The position numbers and the translations under genes are program-made. A stretch of DNA of 64,000 bases, taken from NCBI RefSeq assembly GCF_000015205.1, contig NC_008701.1:1739436-1803435 (forward strand), read 5' to 3'. The DNA comes from Pyrobaculum islandicum DSM 4184 (lineage in GTDB: Archaea > Thermoproteota > Thermoprotei > Thermoproteales > Thermoproteaceae). How positions within the stretch are numbered: position 1 is the first letter of the stretch; every line of letters begins with the position of its first letter. The notes beneath the pieces are model-generated. The model made no database searches and was not told where the DNA came from. It saw only the letters and a program-made list of their open reading frames with translations. This document shows, piece after piece, positions 3,916-55,962 of this stretch.

Positions 3916-4883
3916 GTCTCCTCAGGAGGCCCTTCCATTAGCCGCGCCCCCTCAAACCCCCTAAGGTTGAGAACCTCCGCCATGAACTTAGGCGCCGTAT
4001 ACCCTGTAGGCAAGACGCTGTAGAGCGCCAACGGCCCCTTCTCATCTCTAGATAGTGCGACCACGCCGTCTATTAACAAGCCGCCGCGATTTTCGCCAAA
4101 GAGCATCCCTGAAACGGCGTCTAGTATGAACACGTAACTAAGGGTATAGGAGAGCAGAACGCTCAGCGGAGCATAGAACCCGCCCTCTCCCACTGCGTAA
4201 TCTCGATAGTATTTAAATTCATCGTCGTAAGCCGCAAGAGACCACACCTCTACATGTCTCCCGTCCTTAAACAGCTTGATTATAATATTATAGATCGGCG
4301 GCTCAAAGAAGTCGAAAATATAGGATTCGTCATTTTCACACCACCTCCTCCAAGCGGTTGGCTCGTGTTCACACGCGTCAACACGTAGGGCCTCCCTTGT
4401 CCACCCTAGTTTATCTAGCAACACTCCCAAGTCTACAGGCTTTGCGAAGTGTCCCCTTATGCGGATTGCATCGATATCATCCATAATATTGCCTACCTTC
4501 TCACGAACCTCGTGAGCCCACATAAGGTCGGCCAACTGCGGCGGCTTCTCCTCCGTCGAGGGGCCGAAGTCGGGGTTCCAGCCTTCGAAGGTCGCCCTTG
4601 TGAAGCCCAGGGCGGCTACCCACTTAGCGAGTTCGGTTTGAAACTCCGCTATATAGTACTGGGTCTTTTTCAATTCTTCCAAGCCCTTCTCAGTAAGCTT
4701 GTAACACCCCCTTTTCTCCTTTTCTAGAAGGCCTTTCTTTATGAGATTTTTCAGCAAATTCCCGATAGCCCCCTTTGATCTGCCGAGTTTCTTTCTTACG
4801 TCAGATGGCCTTAGACAGTTGCCATTTTTTGTTGCGTTGTAGGCTAGTTCGAGAATGAGCAAGCTTGTCCTTATTTGATACAT
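3912..4883 (-). CDS. winged-helix DNA-binding protein (323 aa), first gene of operon
   Basis: Residues 1-75 form a winged helix-turn-helix: LLILELAYNA, then RPSDVRKKLGRSKGAIGNLL as helix 2/recognition helix, then KKGLLEKEKRGCYKLTEKG as the wing. The remaining 250 residues are of unknown fold and probably carry a sensor or protein-interaction function. The ATG at 4883 lies about 25 nt from a TATA-like CTTAAAAG read on the minus strand (about 4904-4911), so the mRNA is probably leaderless. It heads the 4883-882 operon and faces the divergent 5007 gene across a repeated AGAACTT operator-like region. It is a likely autoregulator. MarR-like or PadR-like ancestry is possible. Confidence 0.75.
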   Translation of the reverse strand: MYQIRTSLLILELAYNATKNGNCLRPSDVRKKLGRSKGAIGNLLKNLIKKGLLEKEKRGCYKLTEKGLEELKKTQYYIAEFQTELAKWVAALGFTRATFEGWNPDFGPSTEEKPPQLADLMWAHEVREKVGNIMDDIDAIRIRGHFAKPVDLGVLLDKLGWTREALRVDACEHEPTAWRRWCENDESYIFDFFEPPIYNIIIKLFKDGRHVEVWSLAAYDDEFKYYRDYAVGEGGFYAPLSVLLSYTLSYVFILDAVSGMLFGENRGGLLIDGVVALSRDEKGPLALYSVLPTGYTAPKFMAEVLNLRGFEGARLMEGPPEET

Positions 4884-4919
4884 GGAGACAAGTCCCGAGA
4901 GATCTTTTAAGTTTTACGC

Positions 4920-4970
4920 TAGAACTTTAAGTTCGAATAACCTAGAACTTTGATTTTTGCTCAAGTTCTA
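4920..4970. promoter_or_regulatory. operator-like array of AGAACTT / AAGTTCT half-sites between divergent promoters
   Basis: Four half-sites occur within 51 bp: TAGAACTT at 4920-4927, AAGTTC at 4929-4934, TAGAACTT at 4943-4950 and AAGTTCTA at 4963-4970. The first pair forms a near-perfect palindrome and the second pair an inverted repeat with a 12-bp gap. The block lies exactly between the TATA of the minus-strand operon (about 4904-4911) and that of the plus-strand gene (about 4978-4987), so bound protein could act on both. The winged-helix product of 3912-4883 is the obvious candidate ligand. Confidence 0.6.
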
Positions 4971-5006
4971 ACAAAAGTAATAAATAGGCCAGTATAGAAA
5001 AATTTC

Positions 5007-5816
5007 ATGCCGAAGTGGGAGATTCACAACGAAATCTGCAGTCACATACTGGGCCTAGACAAGCGCCTGTGCAACAGAGTGAATGAGCTTATTGACGCGT
5101 CCACCAAGTATCACGACATATTGTGCAGGCCGCCCAGCGATCCTATTACTGATCCTATTAATAGAATGTTGGTTATACGCATAGGATATCCTCCTTGGAC
5201 TTCTGCCTGTGAGCTCTTCAAAGAAGACAAGCTCTGTGGACGCAGTCTCTGGGACTGTCTGAGGGCGGGGATCCTACACTGTCTCGCAGACAGGGCCTAC
5301 GAGTCTCTGAGGAGAGGATGGCGTATGGATTTAGCTAAGGCAAGCCCGTCGGAGTACGTCGCCGATTTAGTAGATCGGTATTTGGCTGATTTGATGTATT
5401 ACGAAACATCTCTTGGCGGCGCTTTTCGTTGCGAAGCCTATGAACTCACATCAGTAGTGGAAAGCGTGGTGAGATCTCTATTGGATAACGCAGAGTTCTT
5501 TGTCAATACGATCTTGAGAGAAGCACAAAATGTGGGAATACGAAATGTAGAGGGCGTTAAGAAGGCGCTAGAGAGATGTCTAGGGAATTCTAAAAAGTTT
5601 GTGTGTATGTTTTTTGAAGACCTCATGCCAGGGTTCCGCCCTTTGCCATTGACGGCGGCCGCTAATAAAATTGAGACTATGCTTGGGCGCGGCGAGAAGG
5701 TCTGTATAAAATTTATAGCTGATGACTTTTTCTTACAATGCGACCCTGCCAAAACTATATGTTTTAGTAACCTAGACGAATTACTGGTTCAATGCATCCG
5801 CCTGTCTGTAACATAG
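5007..5816 (+). CDS. hypothetical protein (269 aa), divergent from the nuclease-like operon
   Basis: ATG at 5007 sits 24-25 nt downstream of TAATAAATAG (4978-4987), a leaderless layout. The N-terminus (MPKWEIHNEICSHILGL, then a helix ending in STKYHD) resembles a short helical module seen at the start of several archaeal hypothetical proteins of HD-like appearance, but I see no complete HD metal site. The rest is mainly helical and unusually Cys-rich for a hyperthermophile cytosolic protein (about 12 Cys). It is divergently paired with the 4883-882 operon and shares its operator region, so co-regulation is likely. Function unknown. Confidence 0.65.
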   Translation: MPKWEIHNEICSHILGLDKRLCNRVNELIDASTKYHDILCRPPSDPITDPINRMLVIRIGYPPWTSACELFKEDKLCGRSLWDCLRAGILHCLADRAYESLRRGWRMDLAKASPSEYVADLVDRYLADLMYYETSLGGAFRCEAYELTSVVESVVRSLLDNAEFFVNTILREAQNVGIRNVEGVKKALERCLGNSKKFVCMFFEDLMPGFRPLPLTAAANKIETMLGRGEKVCIKFIADDFFLQCDPAKTICFSNLDELLVQCIRLSVT

Positions 5817-8725: not shown

Positions 8726-8983
8726 ATCGTCTACAATACACACAGATAAAAACATACCCTCCCCAAGTTCGGCAAAATTTGCTATATGCTACACAACGCC
8801 GTGTGTCAAATAACCGGCGCTAAATACGATGGCAACGTCTCAAAATTTTTCCTGATCTCAGAGGAGGAGAGCTACTAAACCAGAGCTGGCGCGGGGAGAG
8901 AACACCTTACAAAATGCCGGCTAATGGCTGGTCAGGGTGTTTTGTATGTCGTAAGGTTTTTATGGTGGAGGTTTTGTCTTAGT

Positions 8984-9487
8984 GTGGCTGTAGTGTTGCC
9001 TGAGAGGTTGGTTAGGGAGGCAGAGCGGAGGGGTATTGACGTGGGGGAGGTGGCGCTGGAGGCCCTGGCTAGGGCTCTGGAGCTAGATCCGGCCGACGTG
9101 GCCGCCGCGCGTGTGGAGCTGGCGGAGAGGTTTCTCGCCGAGGCGGAGCAGTACGTCGAGAGGGGGGACGCGGTGCAGGCCAGCGAAAAGCTCTACAAAG
9201 CTGTGGAGGAGTGCGTCAAGGCGTTGGCGGAGGAGCTGGGGGTTGAGGCGCTTGGGGAGGTCAGGCGGAGGGGCCGGTGGGATACTTGGCTTCTGGGGCG
9301 GGCGGCGAGGGAAGCGGCGGAGAGACTGGGAGAGGACAGAGTTAGGCTGGCGTGGAAAGACGCCTATGATATACACGTGTGGGGCTTTCACGAGGCTAAA
9401 TACGACGTTAGGGACGTGAAGGCGGCTCTGCCTCTGGCCAGGTGGCTCGTCGAGTTTGTGAAGAGCCGCGTGGCCGGCCGCCCCTAA
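8984..9487 (+). CDS. PaREP1 family protein (HEPN-like, 167 aa)
   Basis: Matches the PaREP1 pattern known from Pyrobaculum: a short N-terminal motif (VLPERLVREAERRG), a helix starting AARVELAERFLAEAEQYV, then DAVQASEKLYKAVEECVKAL and a C-terminal helix with WGFHEAKYD. The paired long helices resemble HEPN domains, but no clear R-x4-6-H RNase motif can be assigned. I start at GTG 8984, 24 nt from GTTTTTAT (about 8956-8963); the longer frame from 8924 begins upstream of that TATA box. The families occur in many copies in Pyrobaculum genomes; function is unknown. Confidence 0.8.
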   Translation: MAVVLPERLVREAERRGIDVGEVALEALARALELDPADVAAARVELAERFLAEAEQYVERGDAVQASEKLYKAVEECVKALAEELGVEALGEVRRRGRWDTWLLGRAAREAAERLGEDRVRLAWKDAYDIHVWGFHEAKYDVRDVKAALPLARWLVEFVKSRVAGRP

Positions 9488-9617
9488 CCTGCGGGGGTTC
9501 TCCCGGCGTATGTTCGCGGGGTTGTGAAGCCCCTGAAAATGCGTTGAAGGTTTGGCCTTAACGGTGTTGACACGGGAAGTATCAGTGTGTTTAAAAATGG
9601 TGAAGGGGAAGGGACTA

Positions 9618-9690
9618 GCCCCTGGGAGGCCCGGACTTGAGGAGGTGGGCCGAGGCCAGGTCCAGGTGGGTCACGGATTAGATGTTTCCT
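9618..9690 (+). ncRNA. candidate small structured RNA with a TATA box
   Basis: TTTAAAAA at 9590-9597 would place a transcription start near 9618, where no good ORF begins. The sequence that follows folds into a nested hairpin: CCTGG (9621-9625) with CCAGG (9656-9660), enclosing GGCCC with GGGCC, and the two stems are separated by GA on one side and GAG on the other, which recalls a kink-turn. Kink-turns bind L7Ae in archaeal H/ACA and C/D guide RNAs. No guide target was checked, and the 3' end is only a guess. Confidence 0.25.
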
Positions 9691-9908
9691 TTGAGCCCTT
9701 TTCTCTGTCGTGGTTGGCTTCCTTCTTACGAAAATGTGTGTTCTGAGTGGGAGGGCCATGTGCCTTCGGCGGTGAGGGGTTGTTCTATGGAGGGCTCCGC
9801 GCCTGGAGGGGGCCGTGCCGTCGTTCACCATGTCCGACGAACCTGCGGTGGAGGCGCAGAGGAGGGGAAAGCCCCTAGGCGTGTGCGGTCAACGACTGTC
9901 GGCAATGA

Positions 9909-10034
9909 GCGCCCGGGACAAACGGTACACAGTGGTGGGGAGATACCGAGGTCGACGTGGTCACATCGCCCGACTTCAGAGACTACGGGGTCAGATACAG
10001 AGAGGATCGCCCCCTCGAGCTGAAAGCAGAGTGA
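9909..10034 (+). pseudogene. coding-like remnant, possible transposase tail
   Basis: Between two PaREP1 genes, a plus-strand frame bounded by a stop at 9906 and TGA at 10032-10034 reads QWWGDTEVDVVTSPDFRD and then YGVRYREDRPLELKAE. It has no start codon or promoter of its own. It resembles the minus-strand peptide at 5900-6040 (both contain a V-V-x-S-P-D core followed by Tyr-Gly and Arg-Tyr). The rest of 9488-10155 shows no intact gene, so this looks like debris of a mobile gene. Confidence 0.3.
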
Positions 10035-10155
10035 AGGAGGTAGTCACGTTGACCAAGAGAGGGGACGGTGGCCGTCCAAGGCTTTCTCGCGGGTCTCTAG
10101 ACGGCGTCCTTGCGCGCTGCTTAAGGTATTTATAAAGGTGGTTAAGTATGTGTAC

Positions 10156-10521
10156 GTGGAGGAGGCTTGGAGAGCCCTCAGGGCGGCGTATGAGGAGCTC
10201 GAGTGGTTTGGGAAGACGGGCGACCCCGCGCTTTTGAGAGACGCGGCTGAGAAGGGCTGGCTTGCCGTGGTGAAGGCAATCGAGGAGCTGTTGAGGGCGT
10301 ACGGCGTGGAGGCTAAGACGTACAGAGAGAAGAGAGACGCGCTGAAGAAGCTGGGGCTGAGGGATCTGGTGCGTAGCTTTGCGGCTATGTCGCAGTTGCT
10401 CCACGTCGACTGCTATCATGACGGCATGTGCGACGAGCAGTACGTCAGAGAGTATCTGAAAGACGTAGAGGATATCCTGGACGAGGTTCGGCGCCGGTTG
10501 CAGCGCTTAAGGGGCCTGTAG
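10156..10521 (+). CDS. PaREP1-like / HEPN-like helical protein (121 aa)
   Basis: A short all-helical protein with the PaREP1-like features EEAWRALRAAYEELEWFGK, a central WLAVVKAIEELLRAYG helix and a C-terminal helix YVREYLKDVEDILDEVRRRL. Between them lie H-V-D-C-Y-H and C-D residues. TTTATAAA at 10129-10136 is 24 nt from GTG 10156, which I take as the start; in-frame GTGs at 10138 and 10150 lie closer to the TATA box. It is related in architecture to the 8984 gene but clearly divergent. HEPN domains often act as RNases or toxins, yet no nucleotidyltransferase partner lies next to it. Confidence 0.65.
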   Translation: MEEAWRALRAAYEELEWFGKTGDPALLRDAAEKGWLAVVKAIEELLRAYGVEAKTYREKRDALKKLGLRDLVRSFAAMSQLLHVDCYHDGMCDEQYVREYLKDVEDILDEVRRRLQRLRGL

Positions 10522-10567
10522 GGGGGTGGGGGCCGCAATGTTTTAAACTGCGCCACATATCACAGAT

Positions 10568-11125
10568 ATGGACGTGGGGAGGCGGGCCCTTCTGTATCTG
10601 GTGGTGTCACACTGGCGGAGGTGGGGGGAGGTGTGGGGGAAGAAGAAGGTGCAGAAGCTGATGTTCCTAGTGGAGCACTGGGACGGGGGGAGGGGGGTGT
10701 CCAAGTCGCTGGGCCTCACTGGGTACAGGTTTGTGGTGTGGCTCTACGGGCCCTACTCGCCTCAGGTGGATGAGGATTTGGAGTGGCTTGTGGAGGAGGG
10801 GTACATCTCGGAGAGGGTGTACGGATACGACTCGTACCACAGCGTGGTGGCCGACGGCGAGGTGGTGAGGCTGGGCTTCTACGACGACGACGAGTCGCCC
10901 AAGGTGATATACGTGTACCGCCCAACCCTGCGCGCCAGGTTTGTGAGGATAGGGGAGCCCCTACGGGCGAGGATAGACGCCGTGGTGGACAAGTTCGGCC
11001 GCTATACTGCGAACGAGCTTGAGACCCTCACGACAGCGATGCTGGGCGTCGAGAAGAGGAAAGCACTCGGGAAGGCAGTAGACGAAATAGTCCAGCTAGG
11101 CGGTGGAACGCGTAATACAACCTAG
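10568..11125 (+). CDS. Panacea/SocA-like (DUF4065-type) protein (185 aa)
   Basis: The N-terminal half has the pattern of the Panacea domain, which neutralises toxins in some bacterial toxin-antitoxin pairs: KKKVQKLMFLVEHWDG followed by FVVWLYGPYSPQVDEDLEWL and a short beta segment. ATG 10568 is 24 nt downstream of TTTTAAAC (10541-10548), fitting a leaderless mRNA. The next gene follows in the same direction with its own TATA box 30 bp downstream. Assignment is by pattern only; the C-terminal 60 residues are unassigned. Confidence 0.6.
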   Translation: MDVGRRALLYLVVSHWRRWGEVWGKKKVQKLMFLVEHWDGGRGVSKSLGLTGYRFVVWLYGPYSPQVDEDLEWLVEEGYISERVYGYDSYHSVVADGEVVRLGFYDDDESPKVIYVYRPTLRARFVRIGEPLRARIDAVVDKFGRYTANELETLTTAMLGVEKRKALGKAVDEIVQLGGGTRNTT

Positions 11126-11155
11126 CACTTTTTACCCGGGTGCATACGGCTGCCC

Positions 11156-11821
11156 GTGGAGTTGCTACTCCGGGGGTTAAACGTGGGCGGCTTCGCCCTG
11201 AGGCCCACCTACAAAAACGAGGATAGGATCAGGGCTGTAGTGGCCATCCTGGAGCGTGGCGAGTTCCGCCTGGAGGATCTGCTCGCTGTGGCGCAGTACG
11301 ACCTAGCCAGCATGCGGGCGCCGGGCTGGATCAAGGAGAAGGCGGAGCGCCTCGCCCGTCTCCTGCGGCGCCGGGGGCTCAAGACGTCTGCCAAGACGGT
11401 GTTTAGGTGGACCTCCTCAAGTTGGCTGTTCTCCCTCGCGATCTACCGCCACCTCACCGAAAGGGGGCTCCCCGGCTACTTCGCCGTCGAGCCCTACGTC
11501 GGCCTTAGCGAGGCGGTTTACCCCTTCGACTACGCCCTGGTGAAAGAGGACAGGGCTGTCCCAGTGGAGGTGAAGCGGCTGGCAAGCTGGGCCAACCTAG
11601 AGCAGTACATCGGCGACTTCAGAGAGAAGGCCCAACGAATCACCACGGCAGTCCTCCACCTGCACTTGACAGAGGAGCTCTGCCACCTGACGCCGCCGGA
11701 GGGGCTCAGAGCCCTGCTCGCACTAGCCAACACGGGCCCCGAGACGAGAGTCATCCTCACCTACCACTGCGGAGACACCTGGAGCCTAGAAGACGTCTCC
11801 AGACTCGCGGAGGGACTGTAG
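11156..11821 (+). CDS. hypothetical protein with PD-(D/E)xK-like motif (221 aa)
   Basis: The N-terminal half is helical and basic (RLARLLRRRGLKTSAKT). The C-terminal half has the order expected of a PD-(D/E)xK fold: a helix before GYFAVEPYVGLSEAVYPFD, Asp in YPFDYALV, then VPVEVKRLASW (E-x-K), then a helix. This would make it a possible DNA nuclease. GTG 11156 is 25 nt downstream of an AT-rich TATA-like CACTTTTTA (11126-11135). It follows the Panacea-like gene, so the two may form a toxin-antitoxin or defence pair. Confidence 0.6.
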   Translation: MELLLRGLNVGGFALRPTYKNEDRIRAVVAILERGEFRLEDLLAVAQYDLASMRAPGWIKEKAERLARLLRRRGLKTSAKTVFRWTSSSWLFSLAIYRHLTERGLPGYFAVEPYVGLSEAVYPFDYALVKEDRAVPVEVKRLASWANLEQYIGDFREKAQRITTAVLHLHLTEELCHLTPPEGLRALLALANTGPETRVILTYHCGDTWSLEDVSRLAEGL

Positions 11822-50196: not shown

Positions 50197-51446
50197 GCCA
50201 GCTCCTCCAGCTCCCTCGCCGCGCTCTCAACGCCTCTTCTATGCCAGTAGCCCGCCGCGGCCGCCCCAGCCGCCCACAAGGCGACGAGAAGGGCGAAGAA
50301 GGCCTCCGCGCCTAGGACGCCCTCTGTGAAGACGGCGCCGGCGTTTATCAGCCAAGCCGCCGCAGTCACCACTCCCACGGCTGTCGACCTAACGGCTGTG
50401 GGGAAAAGCTCGCTCTCTAACACGCTCACCGCCGCCCACGCCCACTCTGAGAAGACCAGGTTGACAAAGAGTACGGCGAAGTAGAGCGAGGCGGGGGCCC
50501 CGTGCACCGCGGCGAGCGCTGTCGCAGTTGCCAAACCGCCGAGGAAAGCTGCTAGGAAGGACGCCCGCCTAGATCTGTCTATCAGCGGGAGGAGTAGGAA
50601 AGCCCCGGCCGCCGCCCCCGCGTTGGCTACTGCGATGTTCACCGCCGCCGCGTCTGCGCCGTAGGCGAAGCCCGGGGCGTAGGGGAGGTAGTAAGCCGCG
50701 ATGTTGTACGTCAGCAGCTGGGCGGTGAAGGCGGCCGCCAGGATGGCCACTCTCCCCCAGTAGCCCCTCAGCGAGGAAGACGCCGGCTGCGCCCTGGGGA
50801 GGGGAACTCCGTATCTCTCCGCCAGAGCCCTCGCATCGCCCTCCCTACCTCTTGCAAGTAGCCACCGGGGGGACTCGGGTATGTGGAGTCTCGCCAGAAA
50901 GACGATGGCGGCAAGCGCCACCGCGGTGAGGAAGGTGTAGAAGACGGCGGTCTTGGGATCCGTCGCCAGCGCCGTGTAGTAGAGGGAGGCCACGGCGATG
51001 GCCGCCGCCCCAATGTTCCAGAAGTTGGTAGAGAGCATCAGCGCGGCGCCCCTCCGCCTAGGCGGCGAAAACTCAGCGAGGGCGGCGTAGGCCGGCCCCA
51101 CCTCGCCCCCCACGCCGAAGTTAATGACGGAGGTGGAGAGGAGGGCAGACGCGAGGTCGAGCCGGCCGGCCCAAAACGCCGCGGCAAACCACAAGGCGCC
51201 AGCCGTATATATGGTGAGGGAAATGACAAGGCCCAGCCGCCTTCCCACCGCGTCCCCCAGTCTCCCGAGGAGGAAGGCCCCCAGCATGAAGGCTAGGGAG
51301 TTAGCGGCGAATATTACGGGGGCGTGTTGCGCCAGATCTGTCAGATATATAGTGGTGGGGACTAGGCTGAAGAGCACCCCGTCTAGGAAAAAGCTGGCGG
51401 AGACTATCGAGAAGAGAGTCCAGTGCACCCTCTTCCACTCGGCCAT
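50193..51446 (-). CDS. MFS transporter (417 aa)
   Basis: A second MFS permease, with LLGRLGDAVGRRLGLVISL, FGVGGEVGPAYAALAEFSP and FLARLHIPESPRWLLARGR. The PESPRWL motif is typical of the sugar-porter/organic-acid group. I start at ATG 51446 (MAEWKRVHWTLF), 23 nt from the TATA box CATATAAAA (51464-51472); a frame back to 51539 would cross it. Convergent with 49009-50196 with a 4-bp overlap. Divergent from the TenA pair, so a thiamine-precursor substrate is conceivable but unsupported. Confidence 0.85.
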   Translation of the reverse strand: MAEWKRVHWTLFSIVSASFFLDGVLFSLVPTTIYLTDLAQHAPVIFAANSLAFMLGAFLLGRLGDAVGRRLGLVISLTIYTAGALWFAAAFWAGRLDLASALLSTSVINFGVGGEVGPAYAALAEFSPPRRRGAALMLSTNFWNIGAAAIAVASLYYTALATDPKTAVFYTFLTAVALAAIVFLARLHIPESPRWLLARGREGDARALAERYGVPLPRAQPASSSLRGYWGRVAILAAAFTAQLLTYNIAAYYLPYAPGFAYGADAAAVNIAVANAGAAAGAFLLLPLIDRSRRASFLAAFLGGLATATALAAVHGAPASLYFAVLFVNLVFSEWAWAAVSVLESELFPTAVRSTAVGVVTAAAWLINAGAVFTEGVLGAEAFFALLVALWAAGAAAAGYWHRRGVESAARELEELA

Positions 51447-51501
51447 AACTAATTGATCTTTTCCATATAAAAAATTTTTATAGGCGGGAGATCTGACGTA
51501 T

Positions 51502-52140
51502 ATGGCAACGGAAAAACTCCGGGCCTGGGCAGACCCCATCTGGCAGGAGATCTTCCGCCACCCCTTCGTCGTAGAGGTTTACCGCGGCTCTCTCCCCATG
51601 GACAAGTTCAGATACTACCTACTACAGGACTACAACTACCTCGTCAACTTCACCAAGGCCCTCTCCCTAGCCGCCGCCAGAGCCCCCAGCGTGGAGCTTA
51701 TGAAGACGGCGCTGGAGCTGGCCTACGGGACTGTCACGGGCGAGATGGCCAACTACGAGGCCCTCCTGAGGGAGGCCGGCCTCACGCTGAAAGACGCCGA
51801 GGGGGCCGAGCCCAACTTCGTAAACGTGAGCTACATGTCCTACCTCCTCTCCGTCTGCTCTCTGGAGGGCTTTTATCAGTGTATGGCGGCCCTCCTCCCC
51901 TGCTTCTGGAGCTATGCCGAGATAGCCCAGAGACACAGAGACGCGCTGGAGAGAAACCCGGTGCCGCTGTATAGGAGGTGGGCCTCGGTCTACCTAACGC
52001 CGGAGTACAACGCCCTTGTGGAGAAGCTACGCGCCCTGCTGGACAGCTCCGGCGCGCCGCCGGAGGCCCTCTGGCCCTACTTCAGACAGGCGTCGATATA
52101 CGAGCTCAAGTTCTGGCAAGCCGCCTATGAGGGTCATTGA
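51502..52140 (+). CDS. tenA: TenA family protein (thiaminase II/aminopyrimidine aminohydrolase-like)
   Basis: All-helical TENA/THI-4 fold: DPIWQEIFRHPFVVEVYRGSL, KFRYYLLQDYNYLVNFTKAL, SYLLSVCSLEGFYQCMAALLPCFWSYAEI and ELKFWQAAYEG. The Cys in YLLSVCS and the downstream Glu near the C-terminus fit the usual active site. TenA salvages thiamine pyrimidine from base-degraded thiamine. TATA box upstream: TTTTTATAGG at about 51476-51484. The ATG of the next gene overlaps its end (ATG 52127, stop 52140). Confidence 0.88.
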   Translation: MATEKLRAWADPIWQEIFRHPFVVEVYRGSLPMDKFRYYLLQDYNYLVNFTKALSLAAARAPSVELMKTALELAYGTVTGEMANYEALLREAGLTLKDAEGAEPNFVNVSYMSYLLSVCSLEGFYQCMAALLPCFWSYAEIAQRHRDALERNPVPLYRRWASVYLTPEYNALVEKLRALLDSSGAPPEALWPYFRQASIYELKFWQAAYEGH

Positions 52141-52717
52141 GACGCTGAGGCGGGAGCTCGAGTCTCTAAACAGGGAGATACTAGCCGCCGCCAAGCCGAG
52201 CCACGAGGCGCTGAGGCGTTTCGTCGCCAACCAACTCTACATAGTCCCCCACGACCTGAAGGCCCTCTCAGCCGCCATGGCCAAGGCCAGAGAACCAGAC
52301 GAGTATAGACTAGTCAAGATGCTCATAGACGGCGACTGGGAAGCCCTAAAGGCCCTCTGGGATCTCGCCGCAGAGCTCGGCGTGGAGTTCTCCTGGGACC
52401 TGCTCGACCCCACCGCCGTGGCCTACACCCACTTCCTCTCCTGGCTGGCGCTAAACGGCACCATGGGAGACCTAGCCGTAGCCGCCGCCGTAAACCTCCC
52501 AGTCTGGGGCCAGAACTGCGCCGCCTTCGCCGCGTGGGCGAGGCGAAACGGCGTGAGAAACACCAGGTTCATGGACCTCTTCGCCGGCCCCTACACAGAG
52601 CTGGAGGAGCTAGCCGAGGGAGTGGCACAGCGCCACCTCGACTGGCCAAGATACCGCTTCATAGCAAAGGCGATCCAGAGATACGAACTAGACTTCTGGA
52701 GGGCGATAAGTTATTAA
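52127..52717 (+). CDS. second TenA-like protein (196 aa)
   Basis: Starts at ATG 52127, overlapping the TenA stop by 14 bp, so both are co-translated; a longer frame from 52016 lies wholly inside tenA and is not used. It keeps the helical TENA/THI-4 architecture (LRRFVANQLYIVPHDLKAL, FLSWLALNGTMGDLAVAA, RFIAKAIQRYELDFWRAI), but the active-site Cys of the first copy is not visible at the expected place, though WGQNCAAFAAWA holds a Cys. It may be a divergent partner or a regulator of the first copy. Confidence 0.8.
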   Translation: MRVIETLRRELESLNREILAAAKPSHEALRRFVANQLYIVPHDLKALSAAMAKAREPDEYRLVKMLIDGDWEALKALWDLAAELGVEFSWDLLDPTAVAYTHFLSWLALNGTMGDLAVAAAVNLPVWGQNCAAFAAWARRNGVRNTRFMDLFAGPYTELEELAEGVAQRHLDWPRYRFIAKAIQRYELDFWRAISY

Positions 52718-52738
52718 AAAAACAAAAAATGTATATAC

Positions 52739-53758
52739 GTGGTAGAAGAGGTTAGGAGGGTTTTGCTTGAGCATCCTGAGATTATTGCGGAGGCTCTTGA
52801 GGCTAGGCCTGAGGTTCTCTACAGGGCACTTGCCAAGCTTATGCCGTGGCAAAACCTAGCCACCAAAGAGGACGTGAGATCGCTGAGAGAGGAGATCCAG
52901 AGGATAGAGGAGAAGATGGCCACCAAAGATGACCTAAAACACTTGGCAACTAAAGACGACGTCAGTAGGCTTGAGGAGCGGCTTGAGGAGACGAGGAGAG
53001 AGATGGCTACGAAGGAGGAGGTTAAGGCTCTTGAGGCCAAAATGGCCACCAAGGAAGATCTAAAGGCCTTCGCCACTAAAGAGGATCTAAAGACTCTTGA
53101 GGCTAGAGTGGCGACGAAGGACGATCTAAAAGCTCTCGCCACGAGAGAGGAGCTGAGGGCTCTCGAGGAGAGGGTGGCCACCAGAGAAGACGTGAGAAGA
53201 CTTGAGGAGCAACTGGGAGAGGTGAGAAAAGTCATGGCTACCAGGGACGATCTCAAGGCCTTTGCCACAAAGGAGGACGTTAGGAGGCTTGGAGAGCAGT
53301 TGGAGGAGGTGAGAAAAGTTATGACTACGAAGGATGAACTTGTGGCGTTTGAAAAACGCCTCATGGCGTATGTCAACGCGCTGGGGGCTAGATGGGGGGT
53401 AGTTAGCGAGGATGTATATAGAGAGGGGGTGAGGGAGCTTCTGCGGGACGTGGGATACACGGTGGAGCGGTGGGTCTACTACGACGGAGAGGGCTACGTC
53501 TACGGCTACCCGGCGGAGGTGGAGCTAGACGTCGTGGCTAAAGACGGCAAAACAATAGCCGTAGAGCTCACAGCCGCCCTCAAGAGGGGAGACCTCCAGT
53601 ACATCAAAAAGAAGGCCGAGCTCTACCAGCGGACAGCCGGCAGGCCGCTGGACAGAGTGATAGTGGTGACGCCGTTTATACACGACAGAAACCCAGACCT
53701 GGTCAGAGCCAAGGCAAAGGAGTACGGCATAGACATCGTAGCCCCCGGAGACCTCTAG
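52739..53758 (+). CDS. coiled-coil nuclease-like protein (DUF3782-type, 339 aa), copy 1
   Basis: Residues 1-45 form a helical module (EEVRRVLLEHPEIIAEALEA). Residues about 45-200 are a string of heptad-like MATKEDLK / LATKDDV repeats, an extended coiled coil. The C-terminal 130 residues form a PD-(D/E)xK-like domain: YGYPAEVELDVVAKDGKTIAV, with Asp and then VELTAALK. GTG 52739 is 25 nt from TTATTAAA (52711-52718). The first 591 bp match the opposite-strand gene at 53879-54985 exactly, as far as I can read. Function unknown. Confidence 0.8.
   Translation: MVEEVRRVLLEHPEIIAEALEARPEVLYRALAKLMPWQNLATKEDVRSLREEIQRIEEKMATKDDLKHLATKDDVSRLEERLEETRREMATKEEVKALEAKMATKEDLKAFATKEDLKTLEARVATKDDLKALATREELRALEERVATREDVRRLEEQLGEVRKVMATRDDLKAFATKEDVRRLGEQLEEVRKVMTTKDELVAFEKRLMAYVNALGARWGVVSEDVYREGVRELLRDVGYTVERWVYYDGEGYVYGYPAEVELDVVAKDGKTIAVELTAALKRGDLQYIKKKAELYQRTAGRPLDRVIVVTPFIHDRNPDLVRAKAKEYGIDIVAPGDL
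52744..53334. repeat. left arm of a 591-bp perfect inverted repeat
   Basis: Identical, as read, to the reverse complement of 54384-54974. The arm covers the shared N-terminal and coiled-coil part of two convergent genes; the 1,049-bp spacer (53335-54383) holds their different C-terminal domains. Identity ends just after MTTK, where the two products diverge (MTTKDEL against MTTKEDL). Confidence 0.9.
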
Positions 53759-53878
53759 CGGCTGTAGGCGAAGCGCAACTCAACGACTCCAGCCGGCGAG
53801 ATGACTGAGCCGTCCACTAGAGGCCTTCGTTACCGCGCCGCCGCAGGTGTTCCCAAATTCCAGACTATCTATCTGTTG

Positions 53879-54985
53879 CTACTCCTGGGGTGGGGTTGGG
53901 TAGACTACCTCCAGCCCTAGGTCTTTGGCCATGGCCTTTACCCGCTCGGGGTATCTGTCGTCTATGTAGGGGGTGACTATGTAGACGGCGGCTACCTTGG
54001 CCCCTCTGGCCCTCTCGTAGAGCTCCCTCTTCTTCACTATGGTGGGCAGGTCGCTCCGCTTCAGCGAGGACGTGATCTCGACGATTATCAGCCTCCCGTC
54101 TCTGACCACCACGTCGTAGTCCACCTCGGAGGGGGTGCCGTATACGTAGCCCTCCCTGTCGTAGAGGATCTCCTTAGACACGGACCACCCGGCCTCCCTC
54201 AACATAGCCCTCATGCCCTCCCTAAACGCCTCCTCGCTGATTACCCCCCACCTGGCCCCCAGCGCGTCCAACTTCCTCTCCAGCCTGTTGATAGCCCTCC
54301 ACAGCTCCTCCACGTCCCTCTTTGTGGCCATCCTCTCCTCAAGCGCCTTGAGCTCCTCCTTAGTGGCGAGGCCCTTAAGATCCTCCTTCGTAGTCATAAC
54401 TTTTCTCACCTCCTCCAACTGCTCTCCAAGCCTCCTAACGTCCTCCTTTGTGGCAAAGGCCTTGAGATCGTCCCTGGTAGCCATGACTTTTCTCACCTCT
54501 CCCAGTTGCTCCTCAAGTCTTCTCACGTCTTCTCTGGTGGCCACCCTCTCCTCGAGAGCCCTCAGCTCCTCTCTCGTGGCGAGAGCTTTTAGATCGTCCT
54601 TCGTCGCCACTCTAGCCTCAAGAGTCTTTAGATCCTCTTTAGTGGCGAAGGCCTTTAGATCTTCCTTGGTGGCCATTTTGGCCTCAAGAGCCTTAACCTC
54701 CTCCTTCGTAGCCATCTCTCTCCTCGTCTCCTCAAGCCGCTCCTCAAGCCTACTGACGTCGTCTTTAGTTGCCAAGTGTTTTAGGTCATCTTTGGTGGCC
54801 ATCTTCTCCTCTATCCTCTGGATCTCCTCTCTCAGCGATCTCACGTCCTCTTTGGTGGCTAGGTTTTGCCACGGCATAAGCTTGGCAAGTGCCCTGTAGA
54901 GAACCTCAGGCCTAGCCTCAAGAGCCTCCGCAATAATCTCAGGATGCTCAAGCAAAACCCTCCTAACCTCTTCTGCAATACTCAC
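53879..54985 (-). CDS. coiled-coil nuclease-like protein (DUF3782-type, 368 aa), copy 2
   Basis: Same N-terminal and coiled-coil region as copy 1, then extra repeats (MTTKEDLKGLATKEELKALE) and a different C-terminal domain with the PD-(D/E)xK-like pattern: YGTPSEVDYDVVVRDGRLII followed by VEITSSLKRSDL. The expected Lys of E-x-K is replaced by Thr. GTG 54985 lies 24 nt from the TATA box ATAAAAAAC on the plus strand (about 55006-55014). A duplicated and then diverged partner of copy 1; the high identity of the arm suggests recent duplication or gene conversion. Confidence 0.8.
   Translation of the reverse strand: MSIAEEVRRVLLEHPEIIAEALEARPEVLYRALAKLMPWQNLATKEDVRSLREEIQRIEEKMATKDDLKHLATKDDVSRLEERLEETRREMATKEEVKALEAKMATKEDLKAFATKEDLKTLEARVATKDDLKALATREELRALEERVATREDVRRLEEQLGEVRKVMATRDDLKAFATKEDVRRLGEQLEEVRKVMTTKEDLKGLATKEELKALEERMATKRDVEELWRAINRLERKLDALGARWGVISEEAFREGMRAMLREAGWSVSKEILYDREGYVYGTPSEVDYDVVVRDGRLIIVEITSSLKRSDLPTIVKKRELYERARGAKVAAVYIVTPYIDDRYPERVKAMAKDLGLEVVYPTPPQE
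54384..54974. repeat. right arm of the 591-bp perfect inverted repeat
   Basis: Reverse complement of 52744-53334. Intramolecular recombination between the arms would flip the 1,049-bp spacer and swap the C-terminal domains behind the two promoters. Confidence 0.9.
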
Positions 54986-55030
54986 ATTATATCTTTACAA
55001 TGTCTTATAAAAAACTGACGGCCCTCGACT

Positions 55031-55560
55031 GTGGCCGATAGGCGGGTAATCGCTTCGGCTTTAACTCCCGCCGCGTCCTCCGTTATCGTCCTCAAGGACT
55101 TCGGCATGAGGATACGCCGGGGTGATAAAGTGGAGTGGGAAGCAGGGGAGGCTGGAGATCGTCTACAAGTGCGGCAGTTTCGGAAGTCTACGTTGGATAT
55201 CCAGAGGACATAGCCCACGATCAACAGAGCGAGTACGTAGTCGGCGTCTGGGGGTACAGAAGGCTTGTGCAGAGGCTGGCCGAAGTATTGGCAGAGTACG
55301 GGATAAGGCTGTACGCCGCCGACGAGCGCAATACGTCTAAGACGTGCTCTGTCTGCGGCGAGGTGCACGAAGACGGCAGAGTGTATAGAGGGCTGTATGT
55401 CTGCAAGAAGTTCAACATCGTGCTAAACGCCGTGGGAAACATAGCCGCGAAGCTCGGCCACAAGACGCCGACGCCGAGGAAGATAGAAACATATTGTCCG
55501 ACGTCAAACGGATTAACCCCGGGCAACGGCCGAGACCCCCACAGTGTGGACCCCGCATGA
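55031..55560 (+). pseudogene. decayed IS200/IS605-type TnpB remnant
   Basis: Only the C-terminal third of a TnpB-like protein is visible, and it is interrupted by frame changes around 55130-55210. EYVVGVWGYRRLVQRLAEVL and YGIRLYAADERNTSKTCSVC with GEVHEDGRVYRGLYVCKK match the RuvC/zinc-ribbon region, ending NIVLNAVGNIAAKLG. Two signs of decay: the second zinc-ribbon Cys pair is reduced to one (YVCKKFN), and the last RuvC Asp (normally N-A-D) reads N-I-V. No TnpA is near. The transposon right end follows at 55680-55755. Confidence 0.8.
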
Positions 55561-55761: not shown

Positions 55762-55957
55762 ATCACATTTTTAACCTCGTAACTACTTCTCACTCATGAA
55801 CGGCATCTACTTGGCCCCGGGGCGGTTGACGGGGGCGCCAAACTGTTGTAAAAACAAGCGACTCGCGGCCGTCCCCCGGGTGACCCGCCCCCTCGCCCCG
55901 GTGCACCCGGGGCGGGCCCTTAAGTCCCCCAGGGAGGGGCCAAGAGAAAGATAGGGG
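55762..55957 (-). repeat. structured non-coding element, copy B (reverse orientation)
   Basis: Reverse complement of the element at 26431-26613, including the TTACGAGGTTAAAAATGTGA end. The closing stem is a perfect 9 bp here: CTTGGCCCC (55810-55818) with GGGGCCAAG (55936-55944), where copy A has a less perfect stem. On the minus strand the conserved GTG start-codon region at the end is followed directly by the TnpB transposon end, so the gene that once followed (as TOPRIM follows copy A) was lost or replaced. It lies divergent from the retropepsin-like gene. Confidence 0.65.
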
Positions 55958-55962
55958 GACAT

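Follow-up and report, generated by a model that had tools for sequence, protein, structure and literature searches.

Organisation of the locus

The window, a stretch of 64,000 nucleotides from Pyrobaculum islandicum DSM 4184 (NC_008701.1), contains two convergent genes, here called A and B, each consisting of a head, a coiled-coil stalk and a nuclease-like tail. The features of the locus, in window coordinates, are as follows.

52711..52719, + strand: TATA-like box of A, TTATTAAAA; consensus match only, conserved in the sister species
52739..53758, + strand: gene A; DUF3782 + PDDEXK_10 protein, 339 aa, GTG start
52744..53334, + strand: left arm of the inverted repeat; head of gene A with the greater part of its coiled-coil stalk; 591/591 identical by exact comparison
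53335..54383, no strand: segment that recombination between the arms would invert
53378..53755, + strand: tail of A, nuclease-like domain; orthologous to the sister species tail
53879..54985, - strand: gene B; DUF3782 + PDDEXK_10 protein, 368 aa, GTG start
53882..54265, - strand: tail of B, nuclease-like domain; orthologous to the sister species tail; D291, E303 and K309 (B numbering) invariant in 12 relatives
54384..54974, - strand: right arm of the inverted repeat; head and most of the gene B stalk; exact comparison
55004..55014, - strand: TATA-like box of B, TTTTTTATAAG; consensus match only, conserved in three genomes

An exact comparison showed that the two arms, each 591 bp in length, are 100% identical as reverse complements; a repeat search stretched them to 598 nt by passing over two mismatches. 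The arm sequence occurs at only two places in the whole genome, which is a single contig of 1,826,402 bp. These results bear out a sequence-only reading of the locus, which had described a 591-bp perfect inverted repeat (52744-53334 against 54384-54974, 591/591 matches) and convergent genes with identical 5' halves; A (+) and B (-) do share identical arms, and we obtained the same coordinates for the invertible interval between them, 53335-54383.

That reading had also given each gene its own promoter, and we found a TATA-like box and a GTG start at both genes; as promoters, the boxes are consensus matches only. The A/T-rich boxes are located ~20-28 nt 5' of each GTG. The upstream regions of the two genes are unlike: the A box overlaps the stop codon of an upstream TENA-family gene, and the B box stands alone. 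As a GTG start and a conserved TATA-like box are present at each gene, neither of them resembles a silent cassette. The 3' halves had been thought to encode different domains; instead, both tails belong to DUF3782 + PDDEXK_10 and share 52% amino-acid identity. On their sequences, the tails of A and B are ancient, diverged paralogs of one nuclease family and not unrelated domains.

Protein family, stalk and putative nuclease domain

Family membership was assigned with Pfam PF12644 and PF07788 (DUF3782 and PDDEXK_10), whose curated cut-offs were exceeded by both the gene A protein (72.3 and 96.3 bits, respectively) and the gene B protein (94.1 and 114.7 bits, respectively). The stalk contains ATK-x-(D/E) beta-layer coiled-coil repeats, which are visible in the alignment, and it matched the solved alpha/beta coiled coil 5APZ in a profile search (E 3.7e-9). 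Alpha/beta coiled coils have been described as stalks of crenarchaeal PD-(D/E)XK endonucleases (eLife 2016, PMC4786415); this DUF3782/PD-(D/E)XK family has the same Pfam domains as A and B (PF12644 and PF07788), together with MATKDD-type beta-layer stalk repeats and a C-terminal nuclease-like domain. The A and B proteins are no different from this family, and what is odd about the locus is that the two genes converge and have identical stalks.

Residues D291, E303 and K309 were invariant in 12 sequences, though the motif reads E-x-T, with a lysine six residues further on. In the structure model, most of the nuclease tail had a pLDDT of 80-90 and its strands and helices followed a PD-(D/E)XK-like order; the full-length model was poor overall (pTM 0.34). 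A fold search with the tail model returned weak matches (best E 3.8e-3), with EndoMS/NucS among the best. We regard A and B as putative nucleases that would cleave DNA, and the shared stalk may let the two proteins assemble together.

A viral origin was considered and rejected: scanning IMG/VR with the family alignment recovered no relative, and the matches in PHROGs were either weak or limited to the head and coiled coil. A known defence system was likewise rejected, the PADLOC matches being weak only. An RNA element was rejected too, with no Rfam family matching at 50-58 kb of the window. Beside gene B, a short ORF at window 55135-55560 with a C-terminal TnpB/Cas12f-like zinc domain (PF07282) is probably a transposon remnant. 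A structured element of ~200 bp at window 55762-55962, which has a conserved TTTTTAA-type box at one end and a strong predicted fold, recurs across this genome as some 30 dispersed copies, full-length or nearly so (73-90%), and could represent either a small non-autonomous element or a family of RNA genes.

The locus in related genomes

An intact A/B pair was carried by two genomes only, the window genome and that of a sister species (G004), in which the same convergent pair has the same neighbours and the same orientation. Window positions 51000-54541 aligned unbroken to G004 at 91% identity; hence, the locus is colinear and lies in the same orientation in both genomes. In a third genome, from another genus (G015), B is present in full, together with the spacer and just the terminal portion of A, and the two are likewise convergent; the B upstream region is conserved there and the B promoter is still joined to the B tail. 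The tail-to-flank linkage was identical in all three genomes, none of which had the inverted form. As judged from this comparison, the A-B tail arrangement is older than the split of the two Pyrobaculum species.

These comparisons bear on how the arms came to be identical. One option in the sequence-only reading was a recent inverted duplication of the 5' half, whereby the arms would be identical because the copy is new. The zero differences across 591 bp agree with such an event, but this pair, with homologous heads, occupies the corresponding site in the sister species, the third genome keeps B and a remnant of A, and the tails are deeply diverged (dS about 1), each being joined to a head in both species. 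The sister locus rules out a recent duplication unless the pair arose twice independently at one site, and we consider it extremely unlikely. Perfect repeats are also prone to mis-assembly, by which one arm may have been collapsed onto the other. However, the genome is in a single contig, 591-bp arms are short enough for paired clone or long reads to span, and the sister assembly independently has near-identical heads with a different sequence, all of which make an artefact exceedingly improbable.

Between genera, the B tails of the window and G015 differed by a dS of 0.17 and the heads by a dS of about 1.9; the corresponding values for G004 and G015 were 0.17 and 1.0. The history of the heads differs from that of the tails across genera as well, which agrees with the 5' part having been replaced repeatedly. 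When the G015 locus (L072, 3185-4515) was compared with window 53580-55045, the B tail and spacer were far closer between the genera than the heads, which suggests cassette transfer and a separate head replacement.

Concerted evolution of the arms

The arms contain ~134 synonymous sites with 0 differences; since ~27 synonymous differences would be expected across the arm at the species-level dS, chance is excluded as the cause of arm identity. In a codon alignment, the head of A matched that of B within each species and the heads were ~92% identical between species, and the tails were ~97% identical between species. Within the first 192 nt of the arm, a concerted pattern (A with B in each species) was seen at 12 sites and an orthologous pattern at 0; in 360 nt of the tails, 118 sites were orthologous and 0 grouped A with B. 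The dS between the heads of A and B was 0 in the window genome and 0.026 in G004, compared with 0.21-0.24 between species. For the tails, dS was about 1.0-1.1 between A and B and about 0.085 between orthologs. In the tail tree, A and B formed separate strong clades, and joining them was rejected (p-AU 0.0006); in the head tree, all head copies from the locus fell into one clade (100/99).

In the heads, therefore, paralogs within a genome are closer to each other than to their orthologs in two lineages, and homogenisation is confined to the arms while the tails keep their orthology. This incongruence of head and tail in two species (concerted to orthologous sites, 12:0 against 0:118) supports gene conversion, one of the three options that had been proposed for the identity of the arms. 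The arm of the window genome is a mosaic, resembling A of G004 at ~nt 150-375 and B of G004 at ~nt 390-590; this suggests exchange in both directions, and repeat loss in G004 could partly explain it. Taken together, the sequence comparisons point with high probability to recurrent gene conversion confined to the arms as the best explanation of their identity. Because an intact pair is present in two genomes only, the conversion events are not firmly fixed in direction or number, and the same picture would result if inversion had taken place an even number of times.

On the conversion reading, A and B are a long-established convergent pair of crenarchaeal paralogs of the PD-(D/E)XK nuclease-like type. 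The heads and repeat-rich coiled-coil stalks of A and B would recombine with each other because they are close together as an inverted repeat, and repeated non-crossover homologous exchange would keep them alike in each lineage; the latest conversion in the window genome would have spanned 591 bp. The nuclease tails, located beyond the homologous tract, have remained distinct. The agent of arm exchange is presumably ordinary homologous recombination. The human Y palindrome P6 (PMC3723533) is likewise an inverted repeat in which conversion maintains near-identity between the arms; compared with that palindrome, the A/B locus is archaeal and small, and its arms constitute the 5' halves of genes whose 3' ends are distinct.

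Possible inversion at the locus and inversions elsewhere in Pyrobaculum

The main proposal of the sequence-only reading was an invertible switch, in which flipping 53335-54383 would swap the C-terminal nuclease domains, much as in restriction specificity loci. The geometry fits, in that inverted repeats flank alternative 3' domains. However, after in-silico inversion of 53335-54383, the A promoter was followed by a 366-aa protein that equals B after the leader residues, and the B promoter by a 341-aa protein that equals A after the leader residues. The protein set was unchanged except for the first 2-4 residues. Inversion yields the same two proteins because the arms are identical; thus, only the pairing of promoter and tail could change, with no domain shuffling. 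On this ground, a domain-shuffling switch was set aside as the main reading.

Invertible type I hsdS loci resemble the A/B locus in having shared inverted segments beside alternative domains. They keep a silent partner, and inversion hence brings a silent segment into the expressed gene and gives a new protein. At the A/B locus, in contrast, both genes appear to be expressed, as far as their promoter-like sites indicate, and the products are unchanged by inversion; with no new protein made and neither gene looking silent, the likening to restriction specificity loci does not carry over. Pfam scanning of ORFs at 48-59.4 kb, including part of the short ones, revealed no recombinase gene. A dedicated recombinase is not universal for invertible specificity loci, some of which invert by homologous recombination alone.

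Inversions are known elsewhere in the genus. In P. oguniense, three inversions are present in 17-35% of the population, one of which is bounded by an inverted glutamate dehydrogenase duplication and one by a paREP-associated gene (PMC3558965). As at the A/B locus, these are inverted gene duplications able to recombine; however, the P. oguniense inversions span 22-173 kb and are polymorphic (PMC3558965), whereas no inverted form of the A/B locus is known. In addition, a DUF3782/PDDEXK gene located between inverted coiled-coil genes has opposite orientations in two species, G003 and G009:

L127 (G003:C1:1694000-1713000), ~9300-11280, against L128 (G009:C1:1275500-1294500), ~8970-10900, opposite orientations: inverted locus pair, from alignment

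The outer flanks of this locus are colinear (85-93%), and the ~1.7 kb middle matches in opposite orientation. By this alignment, the difference between G003 and G009 is an inversion between inverted coiled-coil repeats. The P. oguniense inversions and the G003/G009 flip have the same kind of geometry as the A/B locus and, by analogy, make a physical inversion there plausible.

Two further loci have related arrangements. In L093 (G009:C1:1262500-1268000), inverted coiled-coil-only genes that are 97% identical (926-1340 and 4570-4982) flank a PDDEXK_10-type gene; no inversion can be claimed as a second case, the relatives being scattered in the other genome. In L085 (G002:C1:433000-438500), a 205-bp inverted repeat (2782-2984 and 4970-5171, 87%) surrounds a 616-aa ORF that has no Pfam match and adjoins a DUF3782 gene; the repeat and ORF are possibly a mobile element.

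A switch that alters the protein made could draw on the P. oguniense inversions, which are bounded by inverted gene duplications and occur at frequencies of 0.17-0.35 (PMC3558965), and on the inversion around another DUF3782 gene that separates two species. Against it stand the in-silico result, in which only the first 2-4 residues were altered, the promoter-like sites on both genes, neither of which looks like a silent store, the lack of a recombinase gene among the neighbours scanned, and the comparison across genomes, in which a single tail-to-flank linkage was found in the three. We therefore judge such a switch to be very unlikely. Flipping of the interval in the population with a promoter swap as its sole effect, that is, a change in which promoter drives which tail, is unlikely: the upstream regions of A and B do differ and inversion polymorphism exists in the genus (PMC3558965), but the inverted form was seen in none of the three genomes compared. 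A broader and quite doubtful idea is that inverted coiled-coil/nuclease modules of Pyrobaculum, with the window pair and the G003/G009 locus as members, form a class of flippable loci in which recombination would homogenise the stalks and change the orientation or promoter linkage of the nuclease gene. If true, this class would give heterogeneous nuclease expression in a population.

Implications

The A/B locus is a real and well-explained case of concerted evolution, and its role as a switch is unsupported. A switch should not be inferred from inverted arms next to alternative 3' domains alone; with identical arms and two genes that both look expressed, as here, inversion leaves the proteins unchanged. 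Recurrent gene conversion between inverted paralogs is cleanly illustrated by this natural locus of a hyperthermophilic archaeon, in which the homogenised and the independently evolving parts of one gene are sharply delimited. Together with the G003/G009 inversion, it singles out coiled-coil/nuclease genes as candidate hotspots of recombination in Pyrobaculum.
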